Source of the DNA: Bacteroidaceae bacterium
GTDB lineage: Bacteria > Bacteroidota > Bacteroidia > Bacteroidales > Bacteroidaceae
Assembly: GCA_017524545.1 (NCBI GenBank)
Contig: JAFXVN010000082.1
Location: forward strand, 1-44,441
Direction of reading: 5' to 3'
DNA: 44,441 nucleotides
The notes below the pieces were generated by a model. The model saw nothing but the letters and a program-made list of their open reading frames with translations. It did no database searches and had not been told where the DNA came from. The position numbers and the translations under genes were made by a program. Of this stretch, positions 4,846 through 35,512 are shown in pieces. Within the stretch, counting starts at the first letter, position 1, and each line of letters opens with the position of its first letter.

Positions 4846-6333
4846 ATGTCAAGGAAGAAGAAGGAATTGCCCGTTTACAGGGAAGTGGAGATACAGGACG
4901 TGGCGGCCGAAGGAAAGGCGCTTGTCCGCATAGATGATTTGGTGGTCTTTGTGCCTTACGTTGTGCCGGGCGATGTGGTTGACCTTCGCGTCACGAGGAA
5001 GAAGCATCACTACGCCGAGGCGGTATGCACGCACATCCACAAGAAGAGCGAACGCCGCGCGGAGCCTTTCTGCCCCCATTATGGCGTGTGCGGCGGCTGC
5101 AAGTGGCAGATTCTCCCCTACGAAGACCAGCTGCGCTACAAGCAAAAGCAGGTGATGGACAACCTGGAGCGCATCGGCAAAATCCCCTTGCCCGAATGCG
5201 ACCCCATCCTCGGCTCTGCAAAGACCAGATGCTACCGCAACAAGCTGGAGTTCGGCTTCTCGGATAAAATCTGGCTGACGGAAGAGGAGATACGCTCGGG
5301 CAAGCAGTTCGACCTTCCCGGAGCCGTCGGCTACCACACGGGCAGCGCCTTCGACAAGATACTGCCCATCCGCGAGTGCCACCTTATGGAGGACATCAAC
5401 AACCGCCTGCGTAACGGGGTCCAGAAGTATGCCTACGAGCACGGCCTCACTTTCTTCAACGCCCGCGAGCACCACGGCCTCCTGCGGAACATGATGATTC
5501 GGCTCTCGAACACGAAAGAGTTGATGGTGCTGATGCAGTTCTGCTTCGCACCTTTTGAAGTGAAAAGTGAAGAACTTCAAGAGCAAGCAATGTCTCTGAT
5601 GCAATGGATGCACGAGACCTTCCCCGAGATAACGAGCCTCCTTTGGGTCAACAACGAGAAGTTCAACGACACCATCGGCGACCTCGACGTGCAGCTCTAC
5701 AGCGGCACCGACCACATCTTCCTCGAAATGGAAGGCCTTCGCTTCAAGGTTGGCCCCAAGAGTTTCTACCAAACCAATACCGAACAAGCCTATATATTGT
5801 ATAAAGTAGTGAAGACCCTCTCTAACTCCCCCTTAAAGGGGGAGGACTCCCTCCCTTTAAGGGAGGGCAGGGGTGGGTCTTTGCCTCTTATTTACGACCT
5901 CTACACCGGCACCGGCACCATCGCCAACTTCGTGGCAAGGCACGCCCGCAAAGTCATCGGCATAGAATACGTGCCCGAGGCCATCGAGGATGCAAAGGTC
6001 AACTCCAAGATAAACGGCATCGGGAACACCGAATTCTTTGCCGGTGATATGAAAGACATCCTTTGCAAGGACTTCATCGAGAAGCACGGCAAGCCCGACA
6101 TCATCATCACCGACCCGCCACGCGCCGGAATGCATCCCGACGTCATCGACGCCATCCTCTTCGCCGACCCGCAGCGCATCGTATATGTCAGCTGCAACCC
6201 CGCCACACAAGCCCGCGACCTGCAGCTCCTCTCCACCGCCTACGAAGTGAAGCGCATCCAGCCCGTCGATATGTTCCCCCACACCCAGCACGTCGAGAAC
6301 GTCGTCCTGCTCGAAAGGAAAAGTGAAGAATAG
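4846..6333 (+). CDS. rlmD: 23S rRNA (uracil-5-)-methyltransferase, RlmD/RumA type
   Basis: A 495-residue SAM-dependent methyltransferase that makes 5-methyluridine in 23S rRNA (or tRNA in related proteins). An N-terminal TRAM domain (about 8-65) is followed by the iron-sulfur cysteine cluster CPHYGVCGGC, a Rossmann SAM site (DLYTGTGTIANF), the DPPRAGMHPDV loop and the catalytic cysteine in YVSCNPATQARDL (Cys about 450). The odd feature is an in-frame GC-rich double-hairpin repeat at 5813-5880. It adds about 22 residues (KTLSNSPLKGED...LREGRGGS, about 323-346) just before the SAM-binding strand. The rest of the protein is intact, so the insertion is probably tolerated. RlmD versus RlmC/TrmA-like target choice rests on overall similarity only. 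Confidence 0.93.
   Translation: MSRKKKELPVYREVEIQDVAAEGKALVRIDDLVVFVPYVVPGDVVDLRVTRKKHHYAEAVCTHIHKKSERRAEPFCPHYGVCGGCKWQILPYEDQLRYKQKQVMDNLERIGKIPLPECDPILGSAKTRCYRNKLEFGFSDKIWLTEEEIRSGKQFDLPGAVGYHTGSAFDKILPIRECHLMEDINNRLRNGVQKYAYEHGLTFFNAREHHGLLRNMMIRLSNTKELMVLMQFCFAPFEVKSEELQEQAMSLMQWMHETFPEITSLLWVNNEKFNDTIGDLDVQLYSGTDHIFLEMEGLRFKVGPKSFYQTNTEQAYILYKVVKTLSNSPLKGEDSLPLREGRGGSLPLIYDLYTGTGTIANFVARHARKVIGIEYVPEAIEDAKVNSKINGIGNTEFFAGDMKDILCKDFIEKHGKPDIIITDPPRAGMHPDVIDAILFADPQRIVYVSCNPATQARDLQLLSTAYEVKRIQPVDMFPHTQHVENVVLLERKSEE
5813..5880 (+). repeat. Family A palindromic element inside rlmD (double hairpin)
   Basis: Outer ends AGACCC/GGGTCT enclose two hairpins: CTCCCCC-TTAAA-GGGGGAG (5826-5844) and CCCTCCC-TTTAA-GGGAGGG (5849-5867). 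The same layout and nearly the same sequence occur in thrC at 33620-33690 and, more diverged, in the MFS gene at 34861-34933. It is read in frame. Confidence 0.9.
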
Positions 6334-6405
6334 AAGAAGATAGAGGTTATTGAAGCTTTGCCTGGTTGCCGGTTTAGGTGTGCCTAATTGTGCACTTAGA
6401 CTCGC

Positions 6406-6563
6406 CTGCAACACTTGCAACAGTTGCAACATGTTGTTTCGGGGCGAGGGGCTTCCCTATATATTATATATCAATAATTACATAATGGTATTAAGTATAT
6501 AATAATATATAGCACCTTCTTTTTTCTCGATTTTGCGTGTTGCAACTGTTGCAAGTGTTGCAG
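6406..6563. repeat. Concentric inverted-repeat element, 158 bases
   Basis: Perfect 26-base arms (6406-6431 and 6538-6563) are each built from three TGTTGCAAC-like words with a 9-base period. An inner AT-rich pair (6457-6470 with 6496-6512) shares exactly the same centre, 6484.5. The region between rlmD and the GH30 gene holds no gene. Just before it, at 6381, lies TGCCTAATTG, a word also found in the 22-base repeats at 25992. The right arm overlaps the GH30 promoter. Confidence 0.9.
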
Positions 6564-6603: not shown

Positions 6604-8844
6604 ATGAAAGTAGAAATGAAGCAAATCATCTGCATCCTGCTTATTCTCGTCTGCGCGGCGGGTCAAAAGATTCAGGCACAGGAAGTGCTTGCCGACTTCG
6701 AGAACGGAACGACGGGCACGCTGAGAATTGGCACGGGCTACGACAGCAGCCTCTTCTCTGCGGTTCCCCGCGTCAGGAACAATCCGTCGAAGACCGGCAT
6801 CAACACCTCCGAAAAGTGCGTCACCGCCATAAATGTCGCCGATGCAGGCTGGTGGAAGAACTTCCTGATTCTCGACATGAAACAGCCTGTCACCATCACC
6901 GACGACAACCGCATCCTCTCGCTTCTGGCCTATCGCAGCATCCAGCCGAAGAACATGCGCATCGGCATCAACACCTATGAGGAGAGCGGGCAGCTCTTTC
7001 AGGGCAAGCTCTCGGCCGACGGGGAATGGGAACGCCTCAGCTTCGATTTGGCGAACTTCTACGGCAAGACGTTAAAGAGCATTTACATCATCCTCAGCTG
7101 CAACTGGAGCGACCCGACATCGGGCTGGGACAAAGCGACATATTGCTTCGACGACATCACGTTGAGCGCAGGCGAAACGCTGCCTCGAGCCAATGTGACA
7201 GTCGATGTCTCGATGAAGAAACAGACCATCCAGGACTTCGGTTCGAGCGACTGCTGGTCGGCAGAGTTCGTGAGCGACTACTTCAGCAAGACGCAGAAGA
7301 CAAAGGCTGCCAAATGGCTCTTCAGCAGAGGGATGGACGCCGACGGCAACCCCGAGGGCATCGGGCTGTCGTGCTGGCGGGTGAATGTCGGTGCGGGTTC
7401 AGCTTCGCAAGGCGACGACAGCAACATCGAGGAGGAGATACACCGCACGGAATGCTTCTTGAACGAGGACGGCACTTACGACTGGACGCGGTGCGACGGA
7501 CAGCAGTGGTTCATGCAGCAGGCAAAGGAATATGGTGTAGAGCATTTTGTCCTGTTCTCCAACTCCCCGCCAATCTATTACACGAAGTCGGGGAAAGCCA
7601 ACACGAACGGCCAGACGTTGACCTGCAACCTGAAAACCACCAATTTCGACGAGTTTGCGGAGTTCCTTGCCACCACTGCACAGCACTTTGCCGACGAAGG
7701 CTACAACATCACCTACATCTCGCCCGTCAACGAGCCTCAATATGACTGGAAGGACGGGCAGGAGGGTGCGCCTTGGGAGAACACGGACATCCGAAAGCTT
7801 GCCAGAGAGCTTGACAAGAGCATCAGCAACCGCCAGCTCTCCACGAAAATCCTGATACCAGAGGCAGGCTCATGGTACAACCTCTATGCCGGGACGAACG
7901 CTCATGGCAACAATCAGGTGGATGCCTTCTTCAAACGCTCCAACACATCCACTTACGTCGGCAGTCTCGCTTCTGTGGCAAAGGCGGTGGCAGGCCACAG
8001 CTACTGGTCTGTGGGCGACAACGAAACCCTGAAACAAGTCCGCGAGACAGCTCGGGCAAAAGCGGAGGAGTACGGCCTTGAAATTATACAGACAGAATGG
8101 TCGATGCTCGACGACGCTCCTTCCGCCGAAGCAGGATTCACGGGAGACTATGGGACGGCAAGCAAGATGGACATTGCGCTCTACATGGGAAAAGTCATCT
8201 ACTGCGACCTGGCGTACGGAAACATGACAGGCTGGAGCTACTGGACTGCCTTTGCGCAGGAGAAATGGGGACAAAAGAACCGTTTCCACCTCATCCGCCT
8301 GAATGCGACCACCGACACTGGCGAGGAAAGCAATGCCGACATCAAGCTGGGAGGCATCCTGACAGCCGACAAGAACCTCTGGGTGCTCGGCAACTACAGC
8401 CGCTTCATCCGTCCCGGGTATCAACGGGTAGAGACGGCCGGAGCAGATGAGCTGAATGCCCTAATGGGGACTGCCTGGCTCTCGCCTGATGCGGACACGC
8501 TGGTTGCCGTATTCGTCAATATGGACAAGGGGAGCCGCGAGGTCAGCCTTTCGCTCACAGGCTTGGAAGCAGAGGATGTCAAGGTCTTTGTCACAGACAA
8601 CAGCCACAACCTGCAGTTCGACCCAGACCAGCGGGATGCAGCCAACCTGAAGCTCCCAAGCCGTTCCGTCGTCACGGTAGTCATGTCGTCTCTTGAAGAC
8701 CCCGACGGCATAAAGGAGACCCTCTCCAACTCTCCCTTAAAGGGAGAGAGCATGTACTTTGATTTAAGCGGTAGGCAAATGGTAAATGGTAAATTGCCTC
8801 GGGGCGTTTACATCAAGAACGGACAAAAACTCATATCTAAATAA
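6604..8844 (+). CDS. Secreted GH30-family glycoside hydrolase (beta-1,6-galactanase-like)
   Basis: A 746-residue protein. The signal peptide (about 1-25, IICILLILVCAAG) points to export. Residues about 25-200 look like a carbohydrate-binding beta domain, followed by a GH30 catalytic barrel. The barrel contains GLSCWRVNVGAGSASQGD, the acid/base glutamate in SPVNEPQYDW (Glu377) and the nucleophile glutamate in IIQTEWSM (Glu498). The WRVNVGAGS..QG segment resembles GH30 endo-beta-1,6-galactanases, but the substrate is inference. The C-terminus carries the short tail typical of Prevotella secreted proteins (YFDLSGRQ...GVYIKNGQKLISK). The linker before and within this tail contains a half copy of the family A hairpin (8717-8752) and AAATGGT words (8776-8797). 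A GH35 gene follows after 5 bases, so the two are co-transcribed. With GH35 it may act on galactan side chains. Confidence 0.88.
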   Translation: MKVEMKQIICILLILVCAAGQKIQAQEVLADFENGTTGTLRIGTGYDSSLFSAVPRVRNNPSKTGINTSEKCVTAINVADAGWWKNFLILDMKQPVTITDDNRILSLLAYRSIQPKNMRIGINTYEESGQLFQGKLSADGEWERLSFDLANFYGKTLKSIYIILSCNWSDPTSGWDKATYCFDDITLSAGETLPRANVTVDVSMKKQTIQDFGSSDCWSAEFVSDYFSKTQKTKAAKWLFSRGMDADGNPEGIGLSCWRVNVGAGSASQGDDSNIEEEIHRTECFLNEDGTYDWTRCDGQQWFMQQAKEYGVEHFVLFSNSPPIYYTKSGKANTNGQTLTCNLKTTNFDEFAEFLATTAQHFADEGYNITYISPVNEPQYDWKDGQEGAPWENTDIRKLARELDKSISNRQLSTKILIPEAGSWYNLYAGTNAHGNNQVDAFFKRSNTSTYVGSLASVAKAVAGHSYWSVGDNETLKQVRETARAKAEEYGLEIIQTEWSMLDDAPSAEAGFTGDYGTASKMDIALYMGKVIYCDLAYGNMTGWSYWTAFAQEKWGQKNRFHLIRLNATTDTGEESNADIKLGGILTADKNLWVLGNYSRFIRPGYQRVETAGADELNALMGTAWLSPDADTLVAVFVNMDKGSREVSLSLTGLEAEDVKVFVTDNSHNLQFDPDQRDAANLKLPSRSVVTVVMSSLEDPDGIKETLSNSPLKGESMYFDLSGRQMVNGKLPRGVYIKNGQKLISK
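8717..8797 (+). repeat. Repeat insertions in the GH30 C-terminal linker
   Basis: 8717-8752 is a single-hairpin family A copy (CTCTCCC-TTAAA-GGGAGAG at 8730-8748) encoding TLSNSPLKGES. 8776-8797 is a run of AAATGGT words encoding part of RQMVNGKLP. The SusE/F-like protein has family B words at the equivalent place of its tail (38961-39022). Confidence 0.8.
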
Positions 8845-8849: not shown

Positions 8850-11312
8850 ATGAAACTATTCAAGTATTTAGCACTCATTGCCTTGATGGCATTCTCTGCA
8901 AGCATTAGTGCAGACAACTTTACGGTAGGCGACAAGACCTTCCTGCTTGGTGGCGAGCCTTTCATTGTGAAGGCTGCCGAGGTGCATTACCCCCGCATCC
9001 CGCGTCCCTATTGGGAGCATCGCATCCAGATGTGCAAGGCGCTGGGCATGAACTCCGTTTGCATCTACATCTTCTGGAACATTCACGAACAGAAGGAGGG
9101 CGAGTTCAACTTCACGGACAATAACGACGTGGCCGAGTTCTGCCGCATAGCACAACGTAACGGCATGTATGTCATCGTTCGCCCAGGCCCTTACGTTTGT
9201 GCCGAATGGGAGATGGGCGGCCTGCCTTGGTGGCTCCTGAAGAAGAAGGACATCAAGTTGCGCGAGCGCGACCCTTACTTCATGGAGCGCGTGAAGCTCT
9301 TCGAAGAGAAGGTGGGCGAGCAGCTGAAGCCCCTCACCATCCAGAACGGCGGCCCCATCATCATGATGCAGGTGGAGAACGAATACGGCTCGTATGGCGA
9401 GGATAAGCCCTACGTTAGCGAGATACGCGATTGCCTGCGCTCTATTTACGGCAAGGAGCTGTCACTCTTCCAATGCGACTGGTCTTCTAATTTTGAGAAG
9501 AACGGCCTCGACGACTTGACTTGGACCATGAACTTCGGCACAGGCGCCAACATCGACGAGCAGTTCCGCCGCCTTGGTGAGCTTCGACCCAATGCTCCCA
9601 AGATGTGCTCCGAGTTCTGGAGCGGCTGGTTCGACAAGTGGGGCGCACGGCACGAGACACGTCCCGCCAAGGATATGGTGGAGGGCATGGACGAGATGCT
9701 CTCGAAAGGCATCAGCTTCTCGCTCTACATGACCCACGGCGGCACCTCCTTCGGCCATTGGGCAGGTGCCAACAGCCCCGGCTTTGCGCCAGATGTGACG
9801 AGCTACGACTACGACGCTCCCATCAACGAGTGGGGCCTTCCTACGCCAAAGTTTTGGGAGCTCAGGAAGATGATGGAGAAGCACTCCTCCAAAGGGGGAG
9901 CGGGGAGGGGGCTTCCTGCTGTTCCCAAAGCTCCTATGCCTATCATTACCGTTCCTGAGTTCGAGCTGACCGAGTTCGCTCCGCTTTTCAACGGCTTTGA
10001 CTACAAATATACATGGTGGGACCACAAAGAGGAAGCTCATGGCGACCGCCCAAAGACCTTCGAGGAGCTTGACATGGGGTGGGGCGCTGTGCTCTATACC
10101 ACTCGCTTGCCAGAGATTCCGCAAGATGGCAAGAATCTCTCTACAAGCCAGACAACACTTACTCTCGAAGCCCACGACTTCGCACAGGTCTTTATCGACG
10201 GCAAGTATATGGGCAAGATTGACCGCGTGAAGAATGAGAAGTCGCTCACCTTGCCGCCCATCAAGCAGAGCCAAGAGCTGCAAATCCTCGTGGAAGGCAT
10301 GGGGCGCATCAACTTCGGACGCGCCATCAAGGACTTCAAGGGACTGATTGGCAACCCGACCATCACGACAAGCTTCAGTTCGCATGTGGGCGAAGTGGAT
10401 AAGGTAGAAGTCACCTATACACCCAACCAGTGGGAATGTATGCGCATTCCTGATGACTATGAGGTGGCTGTGAAGGCTTTCGAGGAGCAGAAGTCCAAGC
10501 CCACCACTCGCGAAATGCTCAACGAGCCACACATTGGTCGCGGCTACAGATATGCCAAGGAAGCCGACGACCTCATCTTCGGTCGTGGCTACTATCGCGG
10601 TTACTTCGACCTCAAGAAGGTGGGCGACACGTTCCTCAACTTCGAGAAGTGGGGCAAAGGACAGGTATGGGTGAACGGTCACGCCATGGGACGCATTTGG
10701 AGCATAGGCCCGCAGCAGACGCTCTATGTGCCTGGCTGTTGGCTCAAAAAGGGCAAGAACGAGGTGATTGTCCTCGACATTGCAGGCCCATCAGAGCGCG
10801 TCGTATGGGGACAGGCAGAGCCGGAGCTTAACAAGCTCCAGCTTGAGAAGAACAACAAGCACAACAACCCCGGCGACAAGCCCGACCTTAACTCCCGCAA
10901 CCCTGTCTTCGAGGGCGAACTGAAGGCTGGCAACGGCTGGCAGACACTCAACTTCAAGAGTTCCTATCGCGGTCGCCACCTTGCCATCGAGGTTCAAAGC
11001 ACGCAAAAGGAAGGCGATGTGACAGCCATTGCCGAGCTTTATGCTCTCAGCAAACCGGGCGAGCGCATCAGCCGCGAGCCTTGGACGGTGAAGTATGCCG
11101 ATTCTGAAGACGAGAACGGCAACCACCTCGGCGACAAGGTCTTCGACCTTCAAGAAAGCACCTACTGGCAGACAGAAAAGGGAGCCTCAACGCCTCATCT
11201 GCTTGTCATCGACCTTGGCTCCGAGCAGCAGCTCATGGGCATCGAGTACCTGCCGCGTGCCGAGCAAGGCGCCCCCGGCAGCGCCAAGAACATAAGGGTG
11301 TTCCTCTACTAA
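8850..11312 (+). CDS. Secreted GH35 beta-galactosidase with C-terminal discoidin-like domain
   Basis: An 820-residue exported enzyme that removes terminal beta-galactose. The signal peptide ends near residue 21 (SASISADN). The GH35 catalytic barrel holds the family signature GGPIIMMQVENEYG, with acid/base Glu178, and the nucleophile Glu255 in MCSEFWSGWF. Beta-sandwich domains follow (VFIDGKYMGKIDR; GQVWVNGHAMGRIWSIGPQQ). The last ~100 residues (ESTYWQTEKGAS...LVIDLG) look like an F5/8 type C (discoidin) sugar-binding module. At 9884-9918 a GC-rich hairpin in frame adds KHSSKGGAGRGLPAVP (about 345-357) after the catalytic domain. The gene starts 5 bases after the GH30 stop, which indicates an operon. 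A role in galactan or arabinogalactan breakdown is plausible but not proven. Confidence 0.95.
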   Translation: MKLFKYLALIALMAFSASISADNFTVGDKTFLLGGEPFIVKAAEVHYPRIPRPYWEHRIQMCKALGMNSVCIYIFWNIHEQKEGEFNFTDNNDVAEFCRIAQRNGMYVIVRPGPYVCAEWEMGGLPWWLLKKKDIKLRERDPYFMERVKLFEEKVGEQLKPLTIQNGGPIIMMQVENEYGSYGEDKPYVSEIRDCLRSIYGKELSLFQCDWSSNFEKNGLDDLTWTMNFGTGANIDEQFRRLGELRPNAPKMCSEFWSGWFDKWGARHETRPAKDMVEGMDEMLSKGISFSLYMTHGGTSFGHWAGANSPGFAPDVTSYDYDAPINEWGLPTPKFWELRKMMEKHSSKGGAGRGLPAVPKAPMPIITVPEFELTEFAPLFNGFDYKYTWWDHKEEAHGDRPKTFEELDMGWGAVLYTTRLPEIPQDGKNLSTSQTTLTLEAHDFAQVFIDGKYMGKIDRVKNEKSLTLPPIKQSQELQILVEGMGRINFGRAIKDFKGLIGNPTITTSFSSHVGEVDKVEVTYTPNQWECMRIPDDYEVAVKAFEEQKSKPTTREMLNEPHIGRGYRYAKEADDLIFGRGYYRGYFDLKKVGDTFLNFEKWGKGQVWVNGHAMGRIWSIGPQQTLYVPGCWLKKGKNEVIVLDIAGPSERVVWGQAEPELNKLQLEKNNKHNNPGDKPDLNSRNPVFEGELKAGNGWQTLNFKSSYRGRHLAIEVQSTQKEGDVTAIAELYALSKPGERISREPWTVKYADSEDENGNHLGDKVFDLQESTYWQTEKGASTPHLLVIDLGSEQQLMGIEYLPRAEQGAPGSAKNIRVFLY
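9884..9918 (-). repeat. Family A hairpin (second subtype) inside the GH35 gene
   Basis: CTCCTCC-AAA-GGGGGAG (9884-9900) followed by a G-rich flank. Read on the reverse strand it resembles the copy in the FAD oxidoreductase gene (26485-26519): GCCCCCTCCC, a short spacer, CTCCCCC, then GGAGGAG. It is in frame. Confidence 0.7.
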
Positions 11313-12285: not shown

Positions 12286-12296
12286 CTTGAGTTAAT

Positions 12297-12555
12297 GGTT
12301 ATTGGTTATAGGTTATTGAATTTAGGGGAGGGTGGAATGGTTATTGGTTATAGGTTATAGGTTATTGAATTTAGGGGAGGGTGGAATGGTTATGGGTTAT
12401 GGGTTATTGAATAGAGAGGAATGGTTATTGGTTATAGGTTATGGGTTATTGAATTTTGGGGAATGGTTATTGTATTATTTGACCTGTTGACTGTTCTTGG
12501 GTTTATAACTAAATGCAATGTGGCTTCAATAACCTATAACCAATCACCAATAACC
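12297..12555. repeat. GGTTATT-word element between coaE and DUF5606
   Basis: Period-7 words (GGTTATT, GGTTATA, GGTTATG) form several longer units ending in GAATTTAGGGGAGGGTGGAAT or similar (12297-12475). At 12525-12555 the same words return in reverse complement, giving inverted arms. The right arm overlaps the coaE end and supplies its last codons (KVIGDWL, then TAG). The gap 12286-12533 holds no gene. Confidence 0.85.
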
Positions 12556-13184
12556 TTTCTCAATTGTTCCAATAATCTTGTGTCGTCGGGTGTGCTGTTG
12601 TCGATGATGAAGTCGGCTTGCTGGCGGTGCAGTTCGGGTTGTTGCATCTTCATTCGCGCACGGATTTGTGCTTCTGTGGCTGTGTCGCGCTGCATGGCTC
12701 TGCGAAGGCGGACATCTTCGGGAGCATCGACGAAGAGGACTTTATCCACATAGGCATTGAAGCCGCTCTCGAAGAGGATGGCACTCTCCAGACAGACCAA
12801 AGCCTCCCCCGACCCCTCCAAAAGAGGGGAGAATGGACGAGGCACTTCGGGATGGCTCCCCCCTCCTTGGGAGGGGACGGGGGAGGCCACCCATCTCTCA
12901 AAGTCCCGGAGCACGGCTGGATGGATGATGGCATTGACCTTGCTTGCATTCTCGGGGTTGGCAAAGAGGTAGTCGGCGAGGAGCTGCTTGTTGAGTTTTT
13001 GTCCGTCGAAGACTTCTGAACCGACAAGCCGGATGAGCTTCTCTCGTATCTCGGGGTCGGTGGCAGTCAGTCGTTTGGCTTCCATGTCGCAGTCATAGAC
13101 AGGAATGCCGAACTCCCTCCGCAGGATGTCCGAAACGTAGCTTTTTCCGCTACCTATGCCGCCTGTTATGCCTATCGTCTTCAC
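12534..13184 (-). CDS. coaE: Dephospho-CoA kinase
   Basis: A 216-residue cytoplasmic kinase that phosphorylates the ribose 3'-OH of dephospho-CoA, the last step of CoA synthesis. The P-loop GITGGIGSGKS opens the protein, followed by DCDMEAKRL, NAIIHPAV and the lid arginines in DVRLRRAMQRD. The start is GTG at 13184, 20 bases after the cdaR stop and directly on the P-loop strand; no better start exists. Two oddities: an in-frame family A double hairpin at 12800-12887 encodes about 29 extra residues (SPVPSQGGGSHPEVP...LLEGSGEA, about 100-128), and the final residues KVIGDWL with their stop come from an intergenic word repeat. The core motifs are intact, so function is expected. Confidence 0.95.
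   Translation of the reverse strand: MKTIGITGGIGSGKSYVSDILRREFGIPVYDCDMEAKRLTATDPEIREKLIRLVGSEVFDGQKLNKQLLADYLFANPENASKVNAIIHPAVLRDFERWVASPVPSQGGGSHPEVPRPFSPLLEGSGEALVCLESAILFESGFNAYVDKVLFVDAPEDVRLRRAMQRDTATEAQIRARMKMQQPELHRQQADFIIDNSTPDDTRLLEQLRKVIGDWL
12800..12887. repeat. Family A double-hairpin element inside coaE
   Basis: The outer arms GCCTCCCCCGACCCCTCC and GGAGGGGACGGGGGAGGC pair at 17 of 18 positions. An inner hairpin CCCCTCC-AAAA-GAGGGG lies in the left half and CCCCTCCTTGGGAGGGG in the right half. It is read through in frame by coaE. Confidence 0.85.
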
Positions 13185-14224: not shown

Positions 14225-14527
14225 TTACTGTGCTGGCTGCGGAGATGCAAAGACGCTGCCGCGATCCACCTTGATGCAGATGCCGCTGGCAATCTCCACC
14301 TTGAGGATGTTGTTTACCTCGTCGATGTCCTTTACGGTGCCATAGATGCCGCCGGCGGTGACAATCTGCTGTCCCTTGGTGATGCCAGCCCTGAAGTTCT
14401 GTATCTCTTTCTGTTTCTTCTGTTGCGGACGAATCATGAAGAACCACATGATGGCGAAGATAACCACCATCATCAGCAGGAACGACATGTTGCCGCCGCC
14501 CGGTGCTGCTTGGAGTAATGTGAACAT
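14225..14527 (-). CDS. yajC: Preprotein translocase accessory subunit YajC
   Basis: A 100-residue inner-membrane protein with a single transmembrane helix (about 14-32, MSFLLMMVVIFAIMWFFMI) followed by the family signature RPQQKKQKEIQNFRAGITKGQQIVTAGGIYGTV, a small cytoplasmic beta domain. YajC associates with SecDF and the Sec translocon; it supports protein export but is usually dispensable. It lies between nusB (67 bases of AT-rich words) and cdaR in the same direction. Start ATG at 14527. Confidence 0.95.
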   Translation of the reverse strand: MFTLLQAAPGGGNMSFLLMMVVIFAIMWFFMIRPQQKKQKEIQNFRAGITKGQQIVTAGGIYGTVKDIDEVNNILKVEIASGICIKVDRGSVFASPQPAQ

Positions 14528-14594
14528 AATTTACTATTTGACGATTTACTATTTACTATTTACTATTTATTTGTCGATTTGACGATTTAGCTAT
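14528..14594. repeat. Family B words between nusB and yajC
   Basis: The short spacer is almost entirely TTTACTA/TTTGACGA words with a 7-8-base period, the reverse complement of the GTAAATCG/GTCAAATC words in the rlmD leader and in thrC. Confidence 0.75.
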
Positions 14595-16004: not shown

Positions 16005-16145
16005 CAAAACCCTACATAACCTGCCTACAAACTATTTTCAAGGCTTGAAAATATATTTTCACGGCTTGATAATATATTTTCAAAGCTTGATAATATATTT
16101 TCACGGCTTGAAAATAACTATTAGGCTCGCTGCGTAGGGTTTTGT
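16004..16145. repeat. Family C element: four tandem 21-base palindromes inside 12-base inverted ends
   Basis: Perfect ends ACAAAACCCTAC (16004-16015) and GTAGGGTTTTGT (16134-16145) enclose four head-to-tail units of TATTTTCAAGGCTTGAAAATA type at 16033, 16054, 16075 and 16096. Each unit is itself palindromic. The tandem block and the outer ends share the centre 16074.5. A two-unit relative is found at 35538-35657. Not a CRISPR array: there are no spacers. Confidence 0.92.
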
Positions 16146-16963: not shown

Positions 16964-16977
16964 AATGATTAGTTAAT

Positions 16978-17066
16978 GGTTATAGGTTATTGGTTATTGG
17001 TTATTGGTTATTGGTTATTGATTATAGGTTATTGAAGGGTTATTGGTTATTGAATTTTGAAATAAC
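16978..17066. repeat. GGTTATT words between DUF4923 and the RluA-type gene
   Basis: About ten period-7 copies of GGTTATT or GGTTATA. From 17015 on they are the 3' end of the RluA-type gene read on the reverse strand and encode its last residues. Confidence 0.85.
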
Positions 17067-20373: not shown

Positions 20374-20378
20374 TTTTC

Positions 20379-21522: not shown

Positions 21523-23981
21523 TTCTCTTTCTCCTCTTCAAAGGTGAACGTGATGGGGTTCTTTACTTTCTCCTTGAGTAGGGCGAAGTCGAGCACGTCC
21601 TGAATGTCCGTCACATAGTGGAAGGCAAGACCTTTGAGGTATTCCTCTGGAATCTCGTCGATGTCCTTCTTGTTCTCGTTGCATAGCATGATGTCCTTGA
21701 TGCCGGCTCGTTTGGCTGCAAGAATCTTTTCGCGGATGCCGCCTACGGGCAGCACCTTGCCGCGAAGCGTTATCTCGCCCGTCATAGCCAGACCGGAACG
21801 CACTTTCCTCTGGGTGAGGGCAGAGGCGATGCTCGTCGCCATCGTGATGCCTGCGCTTGGCCCGTCTTTGGGTACGGCACCTTCGGGGACATGAACATGC
21901 AGGTTGTAGTTCTCGAAGATGCGGCTGTCGATGCCAAGACGGTCGGCATGGGCGCGGATGTATTCGAGGGCAAGCAGGGCACTCTCCTTCATGATGTCGC
22001 CAAGGTTGCCGGTCAGGGTGAGCTTGCTGCCCTTGCCTTTGCTCAGGCTCGTCTCGATGAAGAGGATTTCTCCGCCGACGCTCGTCCAGGCCAGGCCTGT
22101 CACGACACCGGCATAGTCGTTGCCCTGATAGCTGTCGCGGCTGTAGATGGGTTTGCCCAACAGCTCCTCCGCCTCTTCCTTCGAGATGCTGTGGTCGCTC
22201 TCTAACTCTCCCTTAGCCACACGGAGGGCAACACGTCGGAAGAGCTTATCGATTTGCTTCTCAAGGCTGCGCACACCGCTCTCGCGGGTGTAGCGCTCGA
22301 TGATGAACTCCAAGGCAGGTTTTGCCACACGGAGTGCCGTGTGCTCCTTCAGTCCGTTCTTCTCTTTGTTCTTGGGGACAAGGTGACGCTTGGCTATCTC
22401 AATCTTTTCCTCGGTGATGTAGCCATCGACCTCGATGAGTTCCATGCGGTCGAGTAGGGGACGAGGGATGTTGCTTGTGTCGTTGGCTGTCGCAATGAAC
22501 ATGACCTTGCTGAGGTCGTAGTCTAAATCGACGTAGTTGTCGTGGAAGGCGATGTTCTGCTCCGGGTCGAGCACTTCGAGGAGCGCAGACGACGGGTCAC
22601 CGTGGACGGAGCCGAGCGACAGCTTGTCGATTTCGTCGAGGATGAAGACGGGGTTCGAGCTGCCTGCACGCTGCATACCCTGGATGATGCGACCGGGCAT
22701 TGCGCCGATGTAGGTGCGACGATGGCCGCGTATCTCGCTCTCGTCGTGCACACCGCCCAAGCTGACGCGGACATACTTCCTGCCGAGCGATTCGGCAATG
22801 CTGCGGCCAAGGCTGGTCTTGCCCACTCCCGGAGGCCCGTAGAGGCAGATGATGGGGCTTTGGCGATCCTTGCGCATCTTCAGCACGGCGAGGTGCTCCA
22901 GGATGCGCTCCTTCACCTTCTCCATGCCGTAGTGGTCGCGGTTGAGCTTCTTCTCCGCCCGGGTGATGTCGGTGTTGTCCTTGGTGCATTCGTCCCAAGG
23001 CAGACCCACGACGGTTTGCAGATACTGGAGCTGCACATTGTAGTCTGGCGACTGGACGTTGATGCGGCTCAACTTTGCCAACTCCTTCTCAAAGATTTCA
23101 CCTGTCTCCTTGGTCCAATGCTTTGCCTTGGCTTTGTCCTTCAGATTGTTGACATCCTCCTGCCTGACGCTCGATTCGTCCTTGTCGCCCAGTTCGGTTT
23201 GGATGTTCTGCACCTGTTGGCGCAGGAAGTACTCGCGCTGCTGCTGGTCGAGGTCGCTGCGGGTCTTGTTCTCAATCTTGCGCTTGAGCTGCATCAGCTC
23301 GATGATATTGTTGGCAAACTGTATGGCTTGCTGCAGACGCTGTAGTTCTGTGGGGCAGGAGAGGAGTGCATACTTCTGCTCAATGGTAAGCGGCAGGTAG
23401 CTGCATATCGTGTTGAGCATGAAGGTGGACGGCTCCATGTTGTTGACGTATTGTGTAAGTTCGTCGGGATAGTCGTCCAATATGCTCATCAGCCTTGCGG
23501 TACGCTCCTTGAGCATGGAGAGCATAGCCCTGTATTCGGTCTGCTCCAAACGTCCGGGGATGAGGTCGGGCATGGTGGCGACGGTGCCTTCGTAGGCGCC
23601 ACCCACCTGCCGAAGCTCCTGTATCTGAATGCGGTTGAATGCCTGGAAGAGCGCATTGTAGGAGCCGTCCGGCATTTGCATGGTATGGACGAGCTTGGCT
23701 ACAACGCCAACGGGGTAAAGGTCATCAGTCTGCGGATTGTCCACCTCGGGAGTCTTTTGCGTCAGCAGTGCCACCATGCCATCTGTGCGCTCAAGCTTGC
23801 GCAGCGTCTTAATGCTGTACTTGCGGCCAACGGTGATAGGGGAAACTGTGCCGGGGAAGAAGATGTTGTCGCGAAGCGTGATGATGGGCATGTTGCCAGC
23901 ATAGTTCGCGTGCATTATCTTGTCGGTCTCGCCCGACACTTCTGCCACAAAAGAAAAGGTTTTCTTATTATTCTCAAACAT
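21519..23981 (-). CDS. lon: ATP-dependent protease Lon
   Basis: An 820-residue cytoplasmic AAA+ protease that degrades damaged and some regulatory proteins. The N-terminal substrate-binding domain (from [21 protein letters not shown]) is followed by a coiled helical part and the ATPase domain with [11 protein letters not shown] (Walker A), FILDEIDK (Walker B) and a sensor region. The C-terminal serine protease domain has the catalytic serine in DGPSAGITM and the lysine in [18 protein letters not shown]. An upstream in-frame TTG exists at 23987; ATG at 23981 is preferred. At 22197-22214 an 18-base stretch is identical to half of the family A element in thrC and codes for KGELES. First gene of the lon-tgt-lptG-helicase-RluA cluster. 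Confidence 0.97.
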
Positions 23982-26051: not shown

Positions 26052-27589
26052 GCTGCAGCGGCTTCGGCACAGCGTTCGCCATCGACTCCTGCGCTGACAA
26101 TGCCGCCGGCATAGCCTGCTCCCTCGCCGCATGGGAAGAGGCCGGCAATACGGATGTGCTGCAAGGTGTCGCTGTCGCGAAGGATGCGGACGGGGCTGCT
26201 GGTTCTTGTCTCTATGCCAATGACGGTTGCCTCGGAGGTGAGGAAGCCATGCTTCTGCCTGCCCCATAGCTTGAAAGCCTCTCGCAAACGGGTGCTGATG
26301 AACTCCGGCATCCAGAAGTGCAGGGGACTTGCTATCAGGCCAGGTGCGTAGGAAGAGGCGTTGAGAGTGGCAGACAAGCGACCATTGACGAAGTCGGTCA
26401 TCCGTTGTGCCGGAGCTGTCTGCTGCCTGTTTGCCTGTAGCCAACACTGCCGCTCAAGTTCCTCTTGGAGTAACATCATTTTTATCTCCTCCTCCTCGGG
26501 GGAGGTTGGGAGGGGGCTATCTTCCGGCCTTATCTCCACCACCATGCCGCTGTTGCTCCAACGTCCGTTGCGATTGGAGGGACTCATGCCATTCACCACG
26601 ACCTGCTCAGGCCCGCTTGCCGCAGGTACGACGAAGCCGCCCGGACACATGCAGAAGCTATACACACCGCGTCCCTGCACCTGGGTCACAAGACTGTATT
26701 CCGCAGCAGGCAACCACTTGCCACGTCCCTGCCTGCTGTGGTATTGAATCTGGTCGATAAGCTCGGCAGGATGCTCCAAGCGCACGCCTATGGCAAGCCC
26801 CTTTGCCTCGATGTCGATACCTGACGCTGCAAGGTAGCGATAAACGTCGCGGGCAGAATGGCCTGTTGCGAGAATAACAGCAGCCCCCCTTATCTCTTGC
26901 CCTCCTGCAACAATACCGCACACCCTACCCTCTTCTACGATGAGCTCCGTCATCTTCTTTTGAAAGTGAACTTCGCCGCCGCTACTTAAGATGGTCTTCC
27001 TCATGTTCTCGATAACACGCGGCAGGCGGTCGGTGCCGATGTGCGGATGGGCGTCGGAGAGGATAGACGGGCTTGCGCCGTGCTGCACAAAGATTTGCAG
27101 GATGCGGTCGGTGTTGCCGCGTTTTTTGCTGCGCGTATAGAGTTTGCCGTCGCTGTAGGCTCCTGCCCCACCCTCTCCAAAGCAGTAGTTGCTCTCAGGG
27201 TCAACGCGCTGTTCGGGGCGGATGCGTGCCAAGTCCTTCTTGCGCTCGCGGACATCCTTGCCACGCTCTATGACGATAGGCTTATAACCCAACTCAATGA
27301 GCCGCAAGGCAGCGAACAAGCCGCCAGGACCAGCCCCAACAACAATCACAGCAGGCTTATCGCTCACATCACGATAGAAGTAAGGCTCGAAGTCCTGCAG
27401 AGGCGGCTCCTCCCCGACGTATGCCCGCACGGTCAGATTGACATAGATATTACGCTGACGTGCATCGATGCTACGACGCACGACACGCACAGCCTGGGCG
27501 TTGATGCCCTTCTCCTGACGAAGATAAGCCAGAATGCTTTGCTCGTTATATGCTTGCTGCGGCAAGATGCGCAGATTTAGTTCAGTCAT
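26039..27589 (-). CDS. FAD-dependent oxidoreductase (COG2509-like)
   Basis: A 516-residue flavoprotein of the large uncharacterised FAD-dependent dehydrogenase group. An N-terminal domain (about 1-75) precedes the dinucleotide-binding motif VIVVGAGPGGLFAALRL and IVIERGKDVRER. CFGEGGAGAYSDGKLYTRSKKRG is characteristic of this group, and the C-terminal FAD contact GLFPCGEGAGYAGGIVSAGVDG is present. Physiological substrate unknown. An in-frame family A hairpin (26485-26519) encodes DSPLPTSPEEEE (about 357-368). The ATG at 27589 overlaps the TGA of the upstream ATPase gene by 4 bases, so that start is chosen over codons further upstream. The last codons lie in a 22-base repeat. Confidence 0.9.
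   Translation of the reverse strand: MTELNLRILPQQAYNEQSILAYLRQEKGINAQAVRVVRRSIDARQRNIYVNLTVRAYVGEEPPLQDFEPYFYRDVSDKPAVIVVGAGPGGLFAALRLIELGYKPIVIERGKDVRERKKDLARIRPEQRVDPESNYCFGEGGAGAYSDGKLYTRSKKRGNTDRILQIFVQHGASPSILSDAHPHIGTDRLPRVIENMRKTILSSGGEVHFQKKMTELIVEEGRVCGIVAGGQEIRGAAVILATGHSARDVYRYLAASGIDIEAKGLAIGVRLEHPAELIDQIQYHSRQGRGKWLPAAEYSLVTQVQGRGVYSFCMCPGGFVVPAASGPEQVVVNGMSPSNRNGRWSNSGMVVEIRPEDSPLPTSPEEEEIKMMLLQEELERQCWLQANRQQTAPAQRMTDFVNGRLSATLNASSYAPGLIASPLHFWMPEFISTRLREAFKLWGRQKHGFLTSEATVIGIETRTSSPVRILRDSDTLQHIRIAGLFPCGEGAGYAGGIVSAGVDGERCAEAAAAFLN
26485..26519 (-). repeat. Family A hairpin (second subtype) inside the FAD oxidoreductase gene
   Basis: On the reverse strand GCCCCCTCCCAACCTCCCCC is followed by GAGGAGGAGGAG, giving an imperfect hairpin. 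It resembles the GH35 copy at 9884-9918. In frame. Confidence 0.7.
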
Positions 27590-31621: not shown

Positions 31622-32850
31622 TGAAGCACCTTATCATCCTTGGCGACGGCATGGCCGACTGGCCTTGCGAGGAGCTGGGCGGCAAGACGCTGCTCCAGTA
31701 TGCCGACACGCCCCACTTCGACTGGCTTGCCAAGCATGGCCGCAACGGACTGCTCAAGACTATCCCCGACGGCTTCCACCCGGGCAGCGAGGTTGCCAAT
31801 TCGAGCATCCTCGGCTACGACCAGCATATTGTCTATGAAGGACGCGGCCCGCTTGAGGCGGCAAGCATCGGCGTGGAACTCTCAGACGACGACCTTGCCC
31901 TGCGCTGCAATCTGGTTTGTCTCGAAGGCGACCTCCTGAAGAACCACTCGTGCGGAAGGCTTGAGACAGAGGAGGGCGATGTGCTGATACGCTTCCTCCA
32001 GGAGAAGCTCGGCTCGGAGCGCATACATTTCTATACTGGTGTGCAGTACCGTCATCTGCTGGTCATCAAAGGCGGCAACAAGCATCTGCACTGCACCCCA
32101 CCCCACGACATCCCCCTGAAGCCGTGGCGCGAGTACATGCTCAGAGCAGAATGCCCCGAGGCAGAAGAGACGGCGAAGCTGCTCACCGACCTAATCCTGC
32201 AAAGTCAGAAACTGCTTGCACAGCATCCGCTCAACATCGAGCGTCAAAAGCGAGGCTTAGACCCAGCCAACAGCATCTGGCCTTGGGGAGGCGGCTATCG
32301 ACCAAAGATGGTGCCGCTCACCGTGACTTATCCGCAAATCAGGAGGGGAGCCGTCATCACAGCCGTTGACCTCATCCGGGGCATCGGACGCTATGCAGGC
32401 CTCGATGTCATCCATGTGCCTGGCGCGACAGGTCTTTGGGACACAGACTTCCGAGGCAAGGCAGAGGCAGCCATCGAAGCCTTGCGCACCAACGACTTCG
32501 TCTATCTTCATGTCGAAGCAAGCGACGAGGCCGGACACGACGGCGACCTGCACATGAAGCTTGGCTGCATCGAGCACCTCGACCATCTGCTCCTCGCCCC
32601 CATCATGGAAACATTATTCTCCCCATTCAATGGGGAGTTAGAGGGGGTCTCTATCGCTCTCCTACCCGACCACCCGACGCCCATCCGCCTGCGCACCCAT
32701 ACGGCAGAACCTATCCCCTTCTGCATCTACTATCCAGGCATAGAACCGGACAAGGTGCAGACCTTCGACGAGGTTGCAGCAAAGGAGGGAGTCTATGGCA
32801 AGCTCGAAGGCGATGCCTTTATCCGTGAGTTCATGAAGCTCCCATCATAA
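31621..32850 (+). CDS. ApgM-like phosphoglycerate mutase family protein, proposed homoserine kinase
   Basis: A 409-residue alkaline-phosphatase-superfamily protein (MKHLIILGDGMADWPCEELGGKTLLQYADTP; metal-binding DGMAD, EASDEAGHDG). Its closest families are archaeal-type cofactor-independent phosphoglycerate mutases, but a subgroup (TIGR02535) found between thrA and thrC has been proposed as a non-homologous homoserine kinase. That context is exactly reproduced here: TAATG overlap with thrA and 21 bases to thrC, while no classical GHMP homoserine kinase (thrB) is in the window. The kinase role is inference from neighbourhood. An inverted family A hairpin at 32617-32651 is read as LFSPFNGELEGVS (about 333-343). 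Confidence 0.88.
   Translation: MKHLIILGDGMADWPCEELGGKTLLQYADTPHFDWLAKHGRNGLLKTIPDGFHPGSEVANSSILGYDQHIVYEGRGPLEAASIGVELSDDDLALRCNLVCLEGDLLKNHSCGRLETEEGDVLIRFLQEKLGSERIHFYTGVQYRHLLVIKGGNKHLHCTPPHDIPLKPWREYMLRAECPEAEETAKLLTDLILQSQKLLAQHPLNIERQKRGLDPANSIWPWGGGYRPKMVPLTVTYPQIRRGAVITAVDLIRGIGRYAGLDVIHVPGATGLWDTDFRGKAEAAIEALRTNDFVYLHVEASDEAGHDGDLHMKLGCIEHLDHLLLAPIMETLFSPFNGELEGVSIALLPDHPTPIRLRTHTAEPIPFCIYYPGIEPDKVQTFDEVAAKEGVYGKLEGDAFIREFMKLPS
32617..32651 (-). repeat. Family A single hairpin inside the apgM-like gene
   Basis: CTCCCC-ATTCAAT-GGGGAG (32619-32637) followed by TTAGAGGGGGTCTC. On the reverse strand this is the left half of the rlmD/thrC element (GAGACCC...CTCTAACTCCCC), so this copy is inserted in the opposite orientation to its host gene's sense strand. 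Confidence 0.8.
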
Positions 32851-32871: not shown

Positions 32872-34260
32872 ATGCAATATTATAGCACAAATGGCAAGGC
32901 ACAGCTTGCCACACTGGAGAAAGCTGTCGTCAAAGGACTGGCAGAGGACAGAGGTCTCTATATGCCCGAGCGCATCAAGCCGCTCCCCAAGGCGTTCTTC
33001 GACAACATTCAGAACATGTCGCTCCAAGAGATTGCCTATCAGGTGGCCGACTGCTTCTTCGGAGAAGACGTAGATGCCGAGAGCCTTCGCAGGATTGTCA
33101 ACGACACACTCTCCTTCGACATACCACTCGTAAAAGTTGAAAAGGTGAAAGGGTTAAAAGGTGAAAAGGACCCCGAAATCTACAGCCTCGAACTCTTCCA
33201 CGGCCCTACCCTCGCCTTCAAGGATGTCGGTGCCCGCTTCATGGCACGATTGCTGCAATACTTTGTAAATCGTAAATCGTCAAATAGTAAATGCATCAAT
33301 GTCCTTGTTGCCACCAGCGGCGACACGGGTTCTGCCGTTGCCAACGGCTTCCTCGGTGTGGATGGCATCCACGTCTATGTGCTCTATCCGAAGGGGAAGG
33401 TCAGCCCCATTCAGGAGTGCCAGTTTACAACACTGGGGCAGAACATCACAGCTATTGAGGTGGACGGTGTCTTCGACGACTGCCAAGCTTTGGTGAAGAG
33501 TGCCTTTATGGACGAGGAGCTTAACGCACACATGAAGCTCACTTCTGCCAACAGTATCAACGTGGCCCGTTTCCTGCCCCAAAGCTTCTACTACTTCTAT
33601 GCTTACGCGCAACTGAAAAAGACCCTCTCTAACTCTCCCTTAAAGGGAGAGGACAACACCCTCCCTTTAAGGGAGGGCCGGGGTGGGTCTATTGTTTGCT
33701 GTGTCCCTTCTGGCAACTTCGGCAACATCTGCTCCGCGCTCTTCGGCAAGCGCATGGGACTCCCCATCGACCGCTTCATTGCAGCCAACAATGCCAACGA
33801 TGTCTTCTACAACTACTTGCAGACGGGGCATTACATGCCAAGGCCAAGCGTGCAGACCATTGCCAATGCGATGGACGTGGGAGACCCCAGCAACTTCGCC
33901 CGCATCCTCGACCTCTACGGCGGGAGCCACGCAGCCATCTGTCGCGACATCAGCGGTGCCACCTACAGCGACGAACAGATAGCCCAGACGATGCGCCAAT
34001 GCCTTTCCGAGACAGGCTATCAGCTCGACCCGCATGGAGCCTGCGGCTACCGTGCGCTCCAGGAAGGCTTGCGCGAGGGGGAAGTGGGCTTCTTCCTTGA
34101 AACGGCGCATCCCGCCAAGTTCAAGCAAGTGGTGGACGGCATCTGCGGTGGCGACGTAGCCATCCCCGACCGCCTGCAGGCCTTTATGAAAGGCGAGAAG
34201 CAAAGCCTCCCCATGAGCAAGGACTTCCGCGACTTCAAGGATTTCCTCTTAAGTAATTAA
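32872..34260 (+). CDS. thrC: Threonine synthase with three repeat insertions
   Basis: A 462-residue PLP enzyme that converts O-phosphohomoserine to threonine. The N-terminus MQYYSTNGKAQLATLEKAVVKGLAEDRGLYMPE is typical. The PLP lysine lies in GPTLAFKDVGARFMARLL, and the phosphate-binding VATSGDTGSAVANGF and CCVPSGNFGN are intact. Compared with usual lengths of about 430, it has three in-frame additions: VEKVKGLKGEK words at 33131-33170, NRKSSNSK words at 33265-33292, and a family A double hairpin at 33620-33690 (KTLSNSPLKGEDNTLPLREGRGGS). All are between, not within, the conserved motifs. Last biosynthetic gene of the operon. Confidence 0.97.
   Translation: MQYYSTNGKAQLATLEKAVVKGLAEDRGLYMPERIKPLPKAFFDNIQNMSLQEIAYQVADCFFGEDVDAESLRRIVNDTLSFDIPLVKVEKVKGLKGEKDPEIYSLELFHGPTLAFKDVGARFMARLLQYFVNRKSSNSKCINVLVATSGDTGSAVANGFLGVDGIHVYVLYPKGKVSPIQECQFTTLGQNITAIEVDGVFDDCQALVKSAFMDEELNAHMKLTSANSINVARFLPQSFYYFYAYAQLKKTLSNSPLKGEDNTLPLREGRGGSIVCCVPSGNFGNICSALFGKRMGLPIDRFIAANNANDVFYNYLQTGHYMPRPSVQTIANAMDVGDPSNFARILDLYGGSHAAICRDISGATYSDEQIAQTMRQCLSETGYQLDPHGACGYRALQEGLREGEVGFFLETAHPAKFKQVVDGICGGDVAIPDRLQAFMKGEKQSLPMSKDFRDFKDFLLSN
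33131..33292 (+). repeat. Two family B word insertions inside thrC
   Basis: 33131-33170 is GTTGAAAA/GGTGAAA/GGTTAAAA words. 33265-33292 is GTAAATC/GTCAAATA words, 21 bases of which are identical to 4811-4831 in the rlmD leader. They sit on either side of the PLP-lysine motif, in frame. Confidence 0.8.
33620..33690 (+). repeat. Family A palindromic element inside thrC (double hairpin)
   Basis: Same build as the rlmD copy: AGACCC/GGGTCT ends, CTCTCCC-TTAAA-GGGAGAG and CCCTCCC-TTTAA-GGGAGGG hairpins. It is 71 bases against 68 in rlmD, the difference being one codon between the hairpins. Confidence 0.9.
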
Positions 34261-34303
34261 GAATTAAGAGTTATCTTGCCTTAGGTCAGGCGCAGGCGGA
34301 ACA

Positions 34304-35512
34304 ATGGTCAACGATAAACTTTGGAACTCGAACTACATAAAGGCATGTAGCGCGAACTTCATGCTCTACTTCTCCTTTATGGTGGTGACACCGCTCTTCC
34401 CGCTATACCTGAGCGAGGTGTTCGGTGCCACGAAGGACGAGACGGGCATGGTCTTGAGCGGCTATACCATCACAGCCCTACTTGTCCGTCCCTTCAGCGG
34501 CTTCCTGGTCGATTCTTTCCCCCGGAAACTTATCCTGCTCGTCTGCTACGGACTCTTCTTCCTGCTTTTCGGCGGCTATCTTGTGGCAGGCTCGCTGCTC
34601 TCCTTCTGCATCCTGCGCACGCTCCACGGCGCACCGATGGGAGCCACCACTGTAGCCCAAAGCACCATCGCCATCGATGTGCTCCCCTCCTGCCGAAGAG
34701 CCGAGGGCATAGGCTACTATGGCATGAGCAACAACCTCGGCACAGCCATCGCCCCGACAATCGGGATGCTCATCTACCAGTGGACAGCCAGCTACGACAT
34801 CATCTTCCTCCTCTCCTTCATCACGGCAGGCGTGGGCTTCGCCATCAACTGCACGCTAAAGCCCCCCTCTAAATCCCCCTTAAAGGGGGAGAAGCGTGGC
34901 ACTTCCCCTTCAAGGGGAGGATGGGTAGGGTCTTTCGACCGCTTCCTCCTGCTGAAGGGATGGCCCGAAGCGCTCTGCATTGCCGCCTACAGCTTTTCAT
35001 ACGGTGTGGTGAGCACCTACATAGCCATCTATGCGAAGGAGGAGCTGGGCATGGGGGCAGGCACAGGACTTTTCTTCACCCTGCTTTGTGTGGGTCTCAT
35101 ATCGAGCCGCCTAATCGGGGCAAGAGGATTGAAGCAGGGGCGTGTGGCAGAGAACGCCTCCCACGGCGTGCTCATCTCCCTCTTTGGCTACCTGCTTTTC
35201 GCATCGCTTCACAACGTGTGGGGCTTCTACGGAGCCGCCCTCATCGTGGGTCTTGGCAACGGGCACATGTTCCCCGCCTTCCAGACGATGTTCATCAACC
35301 TGGCTCCGAACTCGCAGCGCGGCACTGCCAACAGCACCCTGTACACCGCTTGGGAGACAGGCGTCGGGCTGGGCATCATCCTTGGCGGCATAGCGGCGGA
35401 GCAGTTCTCCTACGGCACCGCCTTCTGGATAGCCTGGGTAGGGAACGCCCTGGGTGCCGTCCTCTTCTTCGTCTTCGCCCGGGGACACTTCCTCAAGAAT
35501 AAACTGAGATAA
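34304..35512 (+). CDS. MFS transporter
   Basis: A 402-residue inner-membrane transporter of the major facilitator superfamily with twelve predicted helices in two halves. The cytoplasmic loop between helices 2 and 3 reads GFLVDSFPRKLIL, a degenerate form of the MFS motif A. TLHGAPMGATTVAQS and YYGMSNNLGTAIAPTIGM are typical of drug- or metabolite-exporter types. The substrate is unknown; position 43 bases after thrC allows co-transcription but does not prove a link to threonine. The central loop carries a family A element (34861-34933), read as PPSKSPLKGEKRGTSPSRGG (about 186-210), where an insertion is least harmful. A family C repeat follows the gene. Confidence 0.9.
   Translation: MVNDKLWNSNYIKACSANFMLYFSFMVVTPLFPLYLSEVFGATKDETGMVLSGYTITALLVRPFSGFLVDSFPRKLILLVCYGLFFLLFGGYLVAGSLLSFCILRTLHGAPMGATTVAQSTIAIDVLPSCRRAEGIGYYGMSNNLGTAIAPTIGMLIYQWTASYDIIFLLSFITAGVGFAINCTLKPPSKSPLKGEKRGTSPSRGGWVGSFDRFLLLKGWPEALCIAAYSFSYGVVSTYIAIYAKEELGMGAGTGLFFTLLCVGLISSRLIGARGLKQGRVAENASHGVLISLFGYLLFASLHNVWGFYGAALIVGLGNGHMFPAFQTMFINLAPNSQRGTANSTLYTAWETGVGLGIILGGIAAEQFSYGTAFWIAWVGNALGAVLFFVFARGHFLKNKLR
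34861..34933 (+). repeat. Family A palindromic element inside the MFS gene
   Basis: Two hairpins, TCCCCCTTAAAGGGGGA and CCCCTTCAAGGGG, with CCCCCTCT at the left and GGGTAGGGTC at the right. Diverged from but colinear with the rlmD and thrC copies. In frame. Confidence 0.85.

Follow-up and report, generated by a model that had tools for sequence, protein, structure and literature searches.

Short palindromic elements in a Bacteroidaceae contig

The DNA analysed here (the window) is the 44,441-nt contig JAFXVN010000082.1, contig 31 of the 85 in the 3.6-Mb assembly GCA_017524545.1 of a Bacteroidaceae bacterium (genome G000), an uncultured gut organism whose nearest named relatives by ThrC are mainly Bacteroidales metagenome assemblies of ruminant or gut origin. 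Several of its genes, including rlmD, thrC and coaE, contain short GC-rich palindromic elements (Table 1), and units of the same kind bracket small DUF559 nuclease genes, which lie outside the window and had been overlooked by the first-pass annotation. We consider it somewhat probable that the window copies represent short forms, lacking the nuclease, of a mobile family whose long form consists of a unit, a DUF559 endonuclease gene and an inverted unit. Gene names were read from translations, except where a family or structure search is named. An Rfam scan of the window gave no family at the gathering threshold.

By repeat finding and hairpin scans, GC-rich hairpins were detected at the positions named in the first-pass annotation, which had reported single or double hairpins in at least eight genes. 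Four of these copies (rlmD, thrC, the major facilitator superfamily (MFS) gene and coaE) were doublets and two (GH30 and apgM, the latter reversed as described) were single units, while GH35 held half an element and the FAD oxidoreductase gene a remnant. The main element is an inverted doublet of two 30–32 nt units, each a GC-rich hairpin with its head outward, in the order unit A (AGACCCTCTCTAACTCCCCCTTAAAGGGGGAG) or B, a short spacer, and an inverted unit C or A. As read, the units start with AGACCC, GACCCC or AAGCCC. Unit models for types A, B, C and D, applied to 358 kb of the organism's own genome (the window, further stretches and seven stretches around genes resembling REP-associated tyrosine transposases, RAYTs), detected 85 units in 53 elements, 32 of which were doublets in the +/− arrangement, the only one taken by the pairing script. 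Single-strand folding of six doublets gave z-scores from −0.8 to −8.5; among 200 shuffles, folds as good were found 0–2 times for four doublets, 11 times for L020:6406 and 42 times for the MFS copy.

Table 1. Palindromic copies in the window, and one sequence resembling them
Feature	Position	Strand	Description
rlmD copy	5813..5880	+	A/C inverted doublet, in frame; peptide TLSNSPLKGEDSLPLREGRGGS
GH30 copy	8717..8748	+	single type-A unit near the C-terminus of the open reading frame (ORF)
GH35 copy	9884..9914	−	half of a type-D element in the ORF
coaE copy	12802..12887		in-frame doublet of AAGCCTCCCCCGACCCCTCC-type units; another unit type
lon 18-mer	22198..22215	+	not part of an element; ancestral Lon sequence
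FAD oxidoreductase copy	26472..26518		D-like remnant in the ORF (repeat families D4, D18)
apgM-like copy	32619..32650	−	single type-A unit, reversed
thrC copy	33620..33690	+	A/C inverted doublet, in frame
MFS transporter copy	34860..34933	+	A/C inverted doublet, in frame

A scan of the whole genome for further copies gave numbers beyond chance: the motif CCCTTWAAGGG occurred at 182 sites and its reversed-pattern control at none, and a 27-nt A unit had 66 matches with at most two mismatches against none for the control. Across 41 genomes of the genus, type-A units numbered 66, 29, 24 and 26 in four, one in each of two, and none in 35. Among the 496 doublet pairs, 21 were 85–97% identical over at least 90% of their length, in both orientations, and no flank similarity was detectable within 200 nt in these 21. 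Dispersed alike copies in unlike flanks, in both orientations and with a patchy presence across related species, support the proposal of a mobile microelement comparable to the Rickettsia palindromic elements. Single type-A units were also seen at L009 (885–916), L010 (6361–6392) and L023 (4231–4262), as in GH30; the three outside the window share near-identical bases just downstream and encode SNSPLKGE.

Inverted ends and small size would also suit miniature inverted-repeat transposable elements whose parent DDE transposon had AGACCC...GGGTCT as its terminal repeats. The 24 doublets examined showed no target duplication (mean of 1.04, compared with 1.12 in shuffled pairs), and on this ground the explanation was set aside as most improbable, a DDE element with such ends not having been searched for.

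Comparison with orthologues showed that most or all of the relatives compared either lack the thrC, coaE, MFS and apgM segments or differ there, and that this holds less cleanly for rlmD. Among 30 aligned thrC rows, the insert occupied the same site in G000, G005 and, in decayed form, G013; the other 27 had a plain loop or other extra residues (an AT-rich repeat in G020, other sequence in, for example, G001 and G003), one of them (G054) being cut short there. Of 80 named ThrC loci, 65 had the modal loop length and one (L209) a tandem repeat at this point. The rlmD doublet was confined to G000 among 30 aligned rows; in the same loop, G043 has a D-like unit, G019 a peptide resembling a unit (LPLRGDLEGS) and several further rows other extra residues. 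The coaE insert (~23 aa), whose unit type resembles one flanking a DUF559 gene in G020:C18, was absent from both relatives compared (G013 and G024). Sequence or length differed at the MFS site in six relatives and at the apgM site in the 21 aligned (24 matched, three of them unaligned). In the one relative compared, the FAD oxidoreductase loop was of similar length. The syntenic stretches examined contained no GH30 or GH35 orthologue. Insertion was not always a clean addition: at rlmD and thrC, ~23 and ~17 nt of the relatives' linker were gone. An 18-base fragment of the element had also been reported in lon; this was ruled out, since the fragment encodes AKGELE, which is conserved in G024 (the one relative compared), and is thus ordinary, ancestral Lon sequence.

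DUF559 nuclease genes bracketed by units

Two type-C units ~440 nt apart in the organism's own genome enclose a small ORF for a DUF559 protein (PF04480; C1:15866–16183). A second such gene (C52:15080–15400) is flanked by type-A units (AGGACCCTCTCTAACTCCCCCTTAAAGGGGGAG and AGGACCCTCTCTGTCTCCCCCTTAAAGGGGGAG), and a third (C73), internally deleted, lies between units of another type. PF04480 was present in 37 of 61 genomes of the genus. A locus was taken to have matched flanks when its inverted match was at least 14 and above 98 of 100 shuffles. By this test 25 of the 29 genus loci scored (30 given, one without the motif in place) carried matched inverted units on both sides, and in the four that failed (L219, L220, L223 and L229) shorter or imperfect matched hairpins were visible. 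In the controls, one of 47 thrC or rlmD loci scored above 11, and two of 22 RAYT-like loci reached at least 16, none exceeding 18. An alternative null, in which flanks were paired across genomes, placed 21 of 30 loci above its 95% point and 15 above its 99% point; this null is inflated because the units resemble one another.

Beyond the genus, 12 of 26 scored loci of other Bacteroidota (29 given) passed the test, as did 5 of 11 scored loci from plasmid records of other phyla (12 of 47 matching records taken, from cyanobacteria, alphaproteobacteria, Photobacterium and Deinococcus). Palindrome-bracketed DUF559 genes were observed there on sphingomonad or Erythrobacteraceae plasmids (L297, L299 and L305), in Pseudanabaena (L296) and in Deinococcus (L301).

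Units and nuclease also occurred together at the level of genomes. Each of the four A-rich genomes among the 41 (24–66 A units) had a DUF559 gene flanked by A or a close variant. With three palindrome patterns, PF04480 was found in 25 of 29 genomes holding at least 10 palindromes and in 12 of 32 holding fewer (Fisher p 1.7e-4; Spearman 0.64 over 61 genomes); when two palindromes per DUF559 match were subtracted, the figures were 22 of 26 and 15 of 35 (p 0.0013, Spearman 0.50), these p-values being optimistic because patterns and cut were chosen post hoc and the genomes share ancestry.

Alignment of the DUF559 proteins showed invariant D, E.DG..H and D..R residues. Against the PDB, the profile matched 3hrl (Endonuclease-Like Protein, E 3.2e-33) and 3r3p (Mobile intron protein, E 2.8e-7), the latter of which we take to be I-Bth0305I, a homing endonuclease of the EDxHD class. 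This profile match relates the DUF559 domain to an endonuclease of a phage mobile intron. No literature linking DUF559 to palindromes or mobility was found among open-licence PMC papers.

The architecture resembles that of REPIN/RAYT systems (REPtrons), built on repetitive extragenic palindromic (REP) sequences, in which heads-out inverted doublets are likewise dispersed, an enzyme gene is bracketed by units and a genome holds several unit types. The units could accordingly be REPINs mobilised, as happens in Pseudomonas and E. coli, by RAYT (Y1 HUH) transposases, with DUF559 unrelated to them. RAYT-like genes do occur at nine places in the organism's own genome (11 matches); four that were tested had the REP-associated tyrosine transposase as their best NCBIfam match (E 1.2e-7 to 7.4e-12, below the cut-off), and RAYT matches correlated with palindromes over 41 genomes (Spearman 0.40). 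In the same 41 genomes, however, DUF559 correlated more strongly (0.62), and G051 and G052 carry elements yet gave no RAYT match. Inspection of the flanks of the nine RAYT-like loci did not support RAYT as the mobilising enzyme: only one (C43) had an element within 1.2 kb, on one side and 454 nt away, some flanks being cut short by a contig or stretch end. Moreover, REPINs have a GTAG (or GT[AG]G) foot, which was found in none of the units, and their bracketed enzyme is a Y1 HUH transposase, whereas here it is a DUF559 nuclease, with many copies lying in frame in genes. We therefore regard this explanation as decidedly unlikely. Two RAYT-like loci (L057, in C54 of the own genome, and L064, in C66 of G013) had TGTTGC-type hairpins on one side instead. 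These encode long RAYT-like proteins (a Y1 domain and a C-terminal part) beside a TGTTGC...GCAACA hairpin, and possibly represent a separate REP system.

TnpA-REP genes of subclass 2.6 in Bacteroidetes are described in PMC6006769 as flanked by 'atypical secondary structures' copied elsewhere, which is a further likeness; those genes encode Y1 transposases of ~179 aa, whereas the structures here flank DUF559 genes.

Nuclease elements at a shared site and inside host genes

A 463-nt A-type nuclease element gave matches in 17 of 139 genus genomes, with only four candidates per genome scored. Nine of these were full copies, all lying between apparent rfbC and rfbB genes. At the same site G069 carried a 155-nt derivative which kept only positions 1–97 and 398–463 of the query, ~300 nt of the nuclease being lost and a unit-spacer-unit arrangement remaining. 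Between G005 and G020 the element differed at 1 of 463 positions and the sequence around it at 226 of ~2200 (2660-column alignment), and the thrC stretch of these two genomes was ~76% alike. Such a block of identity would fit transfer or homing of a discrete element.

Long forms were also found inside host genes. Open frames of at least 250 aa, exceeding the nuclease, were present in 18 of the 74 strongest genus matches (E up to 3.2e-20; one with an internal stop) and in 25 of the 134 strongest listed phylum matches (E up to 1.4e-21), example loci among them being read. In a leucyl-tRNA synthetase, residues 294–448 of the query fell between residues 236 and 243 of 1h3n; in methionine synthase (MetH), residues 464–627 fell between 752 and 772 of 9ssp; and in an NAD-dependent epimerase, residues 259–393 fell between 241 and 248 of 5u4q. 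Further in-frame long forms were seen at a second leucyl-tRNA synthetase site and in a CapF-like reductase, a guanylate kinase (N-terminal) and ApgM (C-terminal). The units are marked by peptides such as SPLPTSPSRGGE and LPLEGGTEGG. Searches of seven host ORFs against Pfam detected host domains and DUF559 but no intein family at E ≤0.001, introns not being searched for. In other Bacteroidota, DUF559 was observed in frame in leucyl-tRNA synthetase (L267, L269 and L291) and methionine synthase (L280 and L285).

Taken with the bracketing, these results point to the DUF559 nuclease as the enzyme which would move the units. It may cut or nick DNA at or near the hairpin units or the target. Short forms would then arise through internal deletion and be moved in trans; insertion would proceed without target duplication, probably via a repair that loses some host bases, and within genes the survivors would be those copies which leave the host frame open in permissive loops.

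Several observations weigh against this. Identity limited to the element was clear for G005 and G020 only, was mild for G273, G268 and G283, and was not seen in G234, G245, G000 and G251, where the element was no more alike than its flanks. All nine full A-type elements share a single site, and near-identical nucleases at different sites were not found among 42 DUF559 loci, all with the motif; the four pairs at least 82% alike all had similar flanks. A recent move of a long form to a new site was therefore not seen. Seven of the 17 matched genomes gave unit matches only (G237, G242, G294 and G051, the last with a decayed C-type nuclease) or only nuclease pieces (G257, G282 and G240), so that units occur without a detected A-type nuclease. 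Fourteen of the 26 scored loci of other Bacteroidota fell below the flank threshold, several of them, including L265, L266, L272 and L291, having shorter matched hairpins, and some passing loci (L288 and L292) differ in look. Two of the three palindrome patterns were picked after the DUF559 flanks had been seen, and the cut of 10 was set afterwards. Finally, four genomes with at least 10 palindromes had no PF04480 match (G018 with 129, G043 with 57, G074 with 14 and G042 with 13), perhaps owing to incomplete assemblies.

Alternatively, the palindromes could be moved by another enzyme, with DUF559 a passenger captured between two of them and possibly retained as a nuclease of repair or restriction. 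VsrA of Caulobacter, a DUF559 protein, has a proposed role in mismatch repair (PMC12907096), some DUF559 loci have no matched flanks, and some genomes have units without such a nuclease. Against this, every bracketed nuclease has its own matched unit pair, a pattern seen with many unit types; its domain is related to a mobile-intron endonuclease; and nuclease elements recur in frame within unrelated host genes. We consider a passenger role unlikely.

The family resembles phage mobile-intron (EDxHD) homing endonucleases, as represented by 3r3p, in the sequence relationship of its nuclease, in recurring at one site across several species and in one clear block of element-limited identity (G005 and G020), such identity being mild or absent in the other pairs; in contrast to those endonucleases, it has hairpin ends and non-coding short forms dispersed over the genome.

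Bacteria commonly carry small palindromic repeats, and according to PMC3733652 a large group of these, the CGTC REPs, has no known dedicated transposase. CGTC REPs and Rickettsia palindromic elements, as described there, resemble the present elements in being small palindromes which form doublets and lie inside genes, in frame in conserved ones. The CGTC end motif (or TGTC, CCTC) was not present in the units when these were read directly, and a bracketed nuclease exists here; the Rickettsia elements were compared by description and not by sequence. Tentatively, we propose that the nuclease elements may form a distinct and widespread class of mobile element, in which a Vsr-like, EDxHD-related DUF559 endonuclease bracketed by hairpins enters essential genes in frame, with no splicing, and gives rise to short forms like REPINs; this could provide the enzyme that at least some families of palindromic repeats lack. 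The bracketed nuclease is a concrete candidate enzyme for repeats with no known dedicated transposase. Such a little-noticed kind of element, able to lengthen proteins without breaking them, would give both whole enzyme domains (DUF559 in leucyl-tRNA synthetase and methionine synthase) and short peptides an in-frame route into essential proteins, and would explain why some annotated proteins contain DUF559 fusions or additional loops.

Reading frame, loops and neighbouring repeats

The surroundings of the catalogued elements were assessed with a periodic Markov coding model; the catalogue leaves out the coaE and FAD copies, which the unit search had missed. Of the 53 elements one, near a stretch end, was dropped; among the other 52, 16 had coding sequence on both sides, 27 on one side and nine on neither. 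All 16 with coding sequence on both sides (one strand) were in frame and open, in agreement with the claim that insertion keeps the host frame open. The type-A unit has one open frame of three per strand, and two or three are open in types B, C and D. An A copy that survives inside a gene must therefore use its one open frame, and the shared SNSPLKGE frame noted in the first-pass annotation, although real, exists because stop codons close the other frames of the main unit. The common peptide is a by-product and does not indicate selection for its sequence.

In an AlphaFold2 model of ThrC, residues 256–271 had a predicted local distance difference test score below 50 and lay between a helix (230–253) and a strand (274–279), which supports the view that the thrC insert lies in a loop, here modelled at low confidence. 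It had been suggested that the element makes new surface loops, and adaptive peptide modules selected for such loops would be in frame and in a loop, as is the thrC insert, which is common to three related species. The modelled loop bears out the first part of this suggestion for thrC; retention for usefulness is not supported. The thrC loop bears unrelated repeats in other species and the rlmD loop other units or residues, which favours tolerance; stop codons leave the A unit a single usable frame, and the thrC copy of G013 is decaying. We judge selection for new loops to be very unlikely.

Other repeats were observed in the window. An AT-rich repeat, GTAAATCGTCAAATAGTAAAT, lies at 4803–4840, 14524–14567, 19199–19242 and 33265–33292, one of these copies lying within the thrC ORF; in the relatives G020 and L136 a repeat of this kind occupies, in frame, the thrC loop that holds the GC-rich element here. 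Heptamer arrays (GGTTATT/GGTTATA) running in both orientations were seen at 12294–12462, 16974–17061 and 20376–20420. Tandem TATTTTCAAGGCTTGAAAATA palindromes occur at 16004–16145 and 35561–35632, the two sites being inverted repeats of each other, and a perfect 28-nt inverted repeat, AACCACGAATTGCACGAATTACACGAAT, lies at 41328–41355 and 41387–41414 with 31 nt between its arms.

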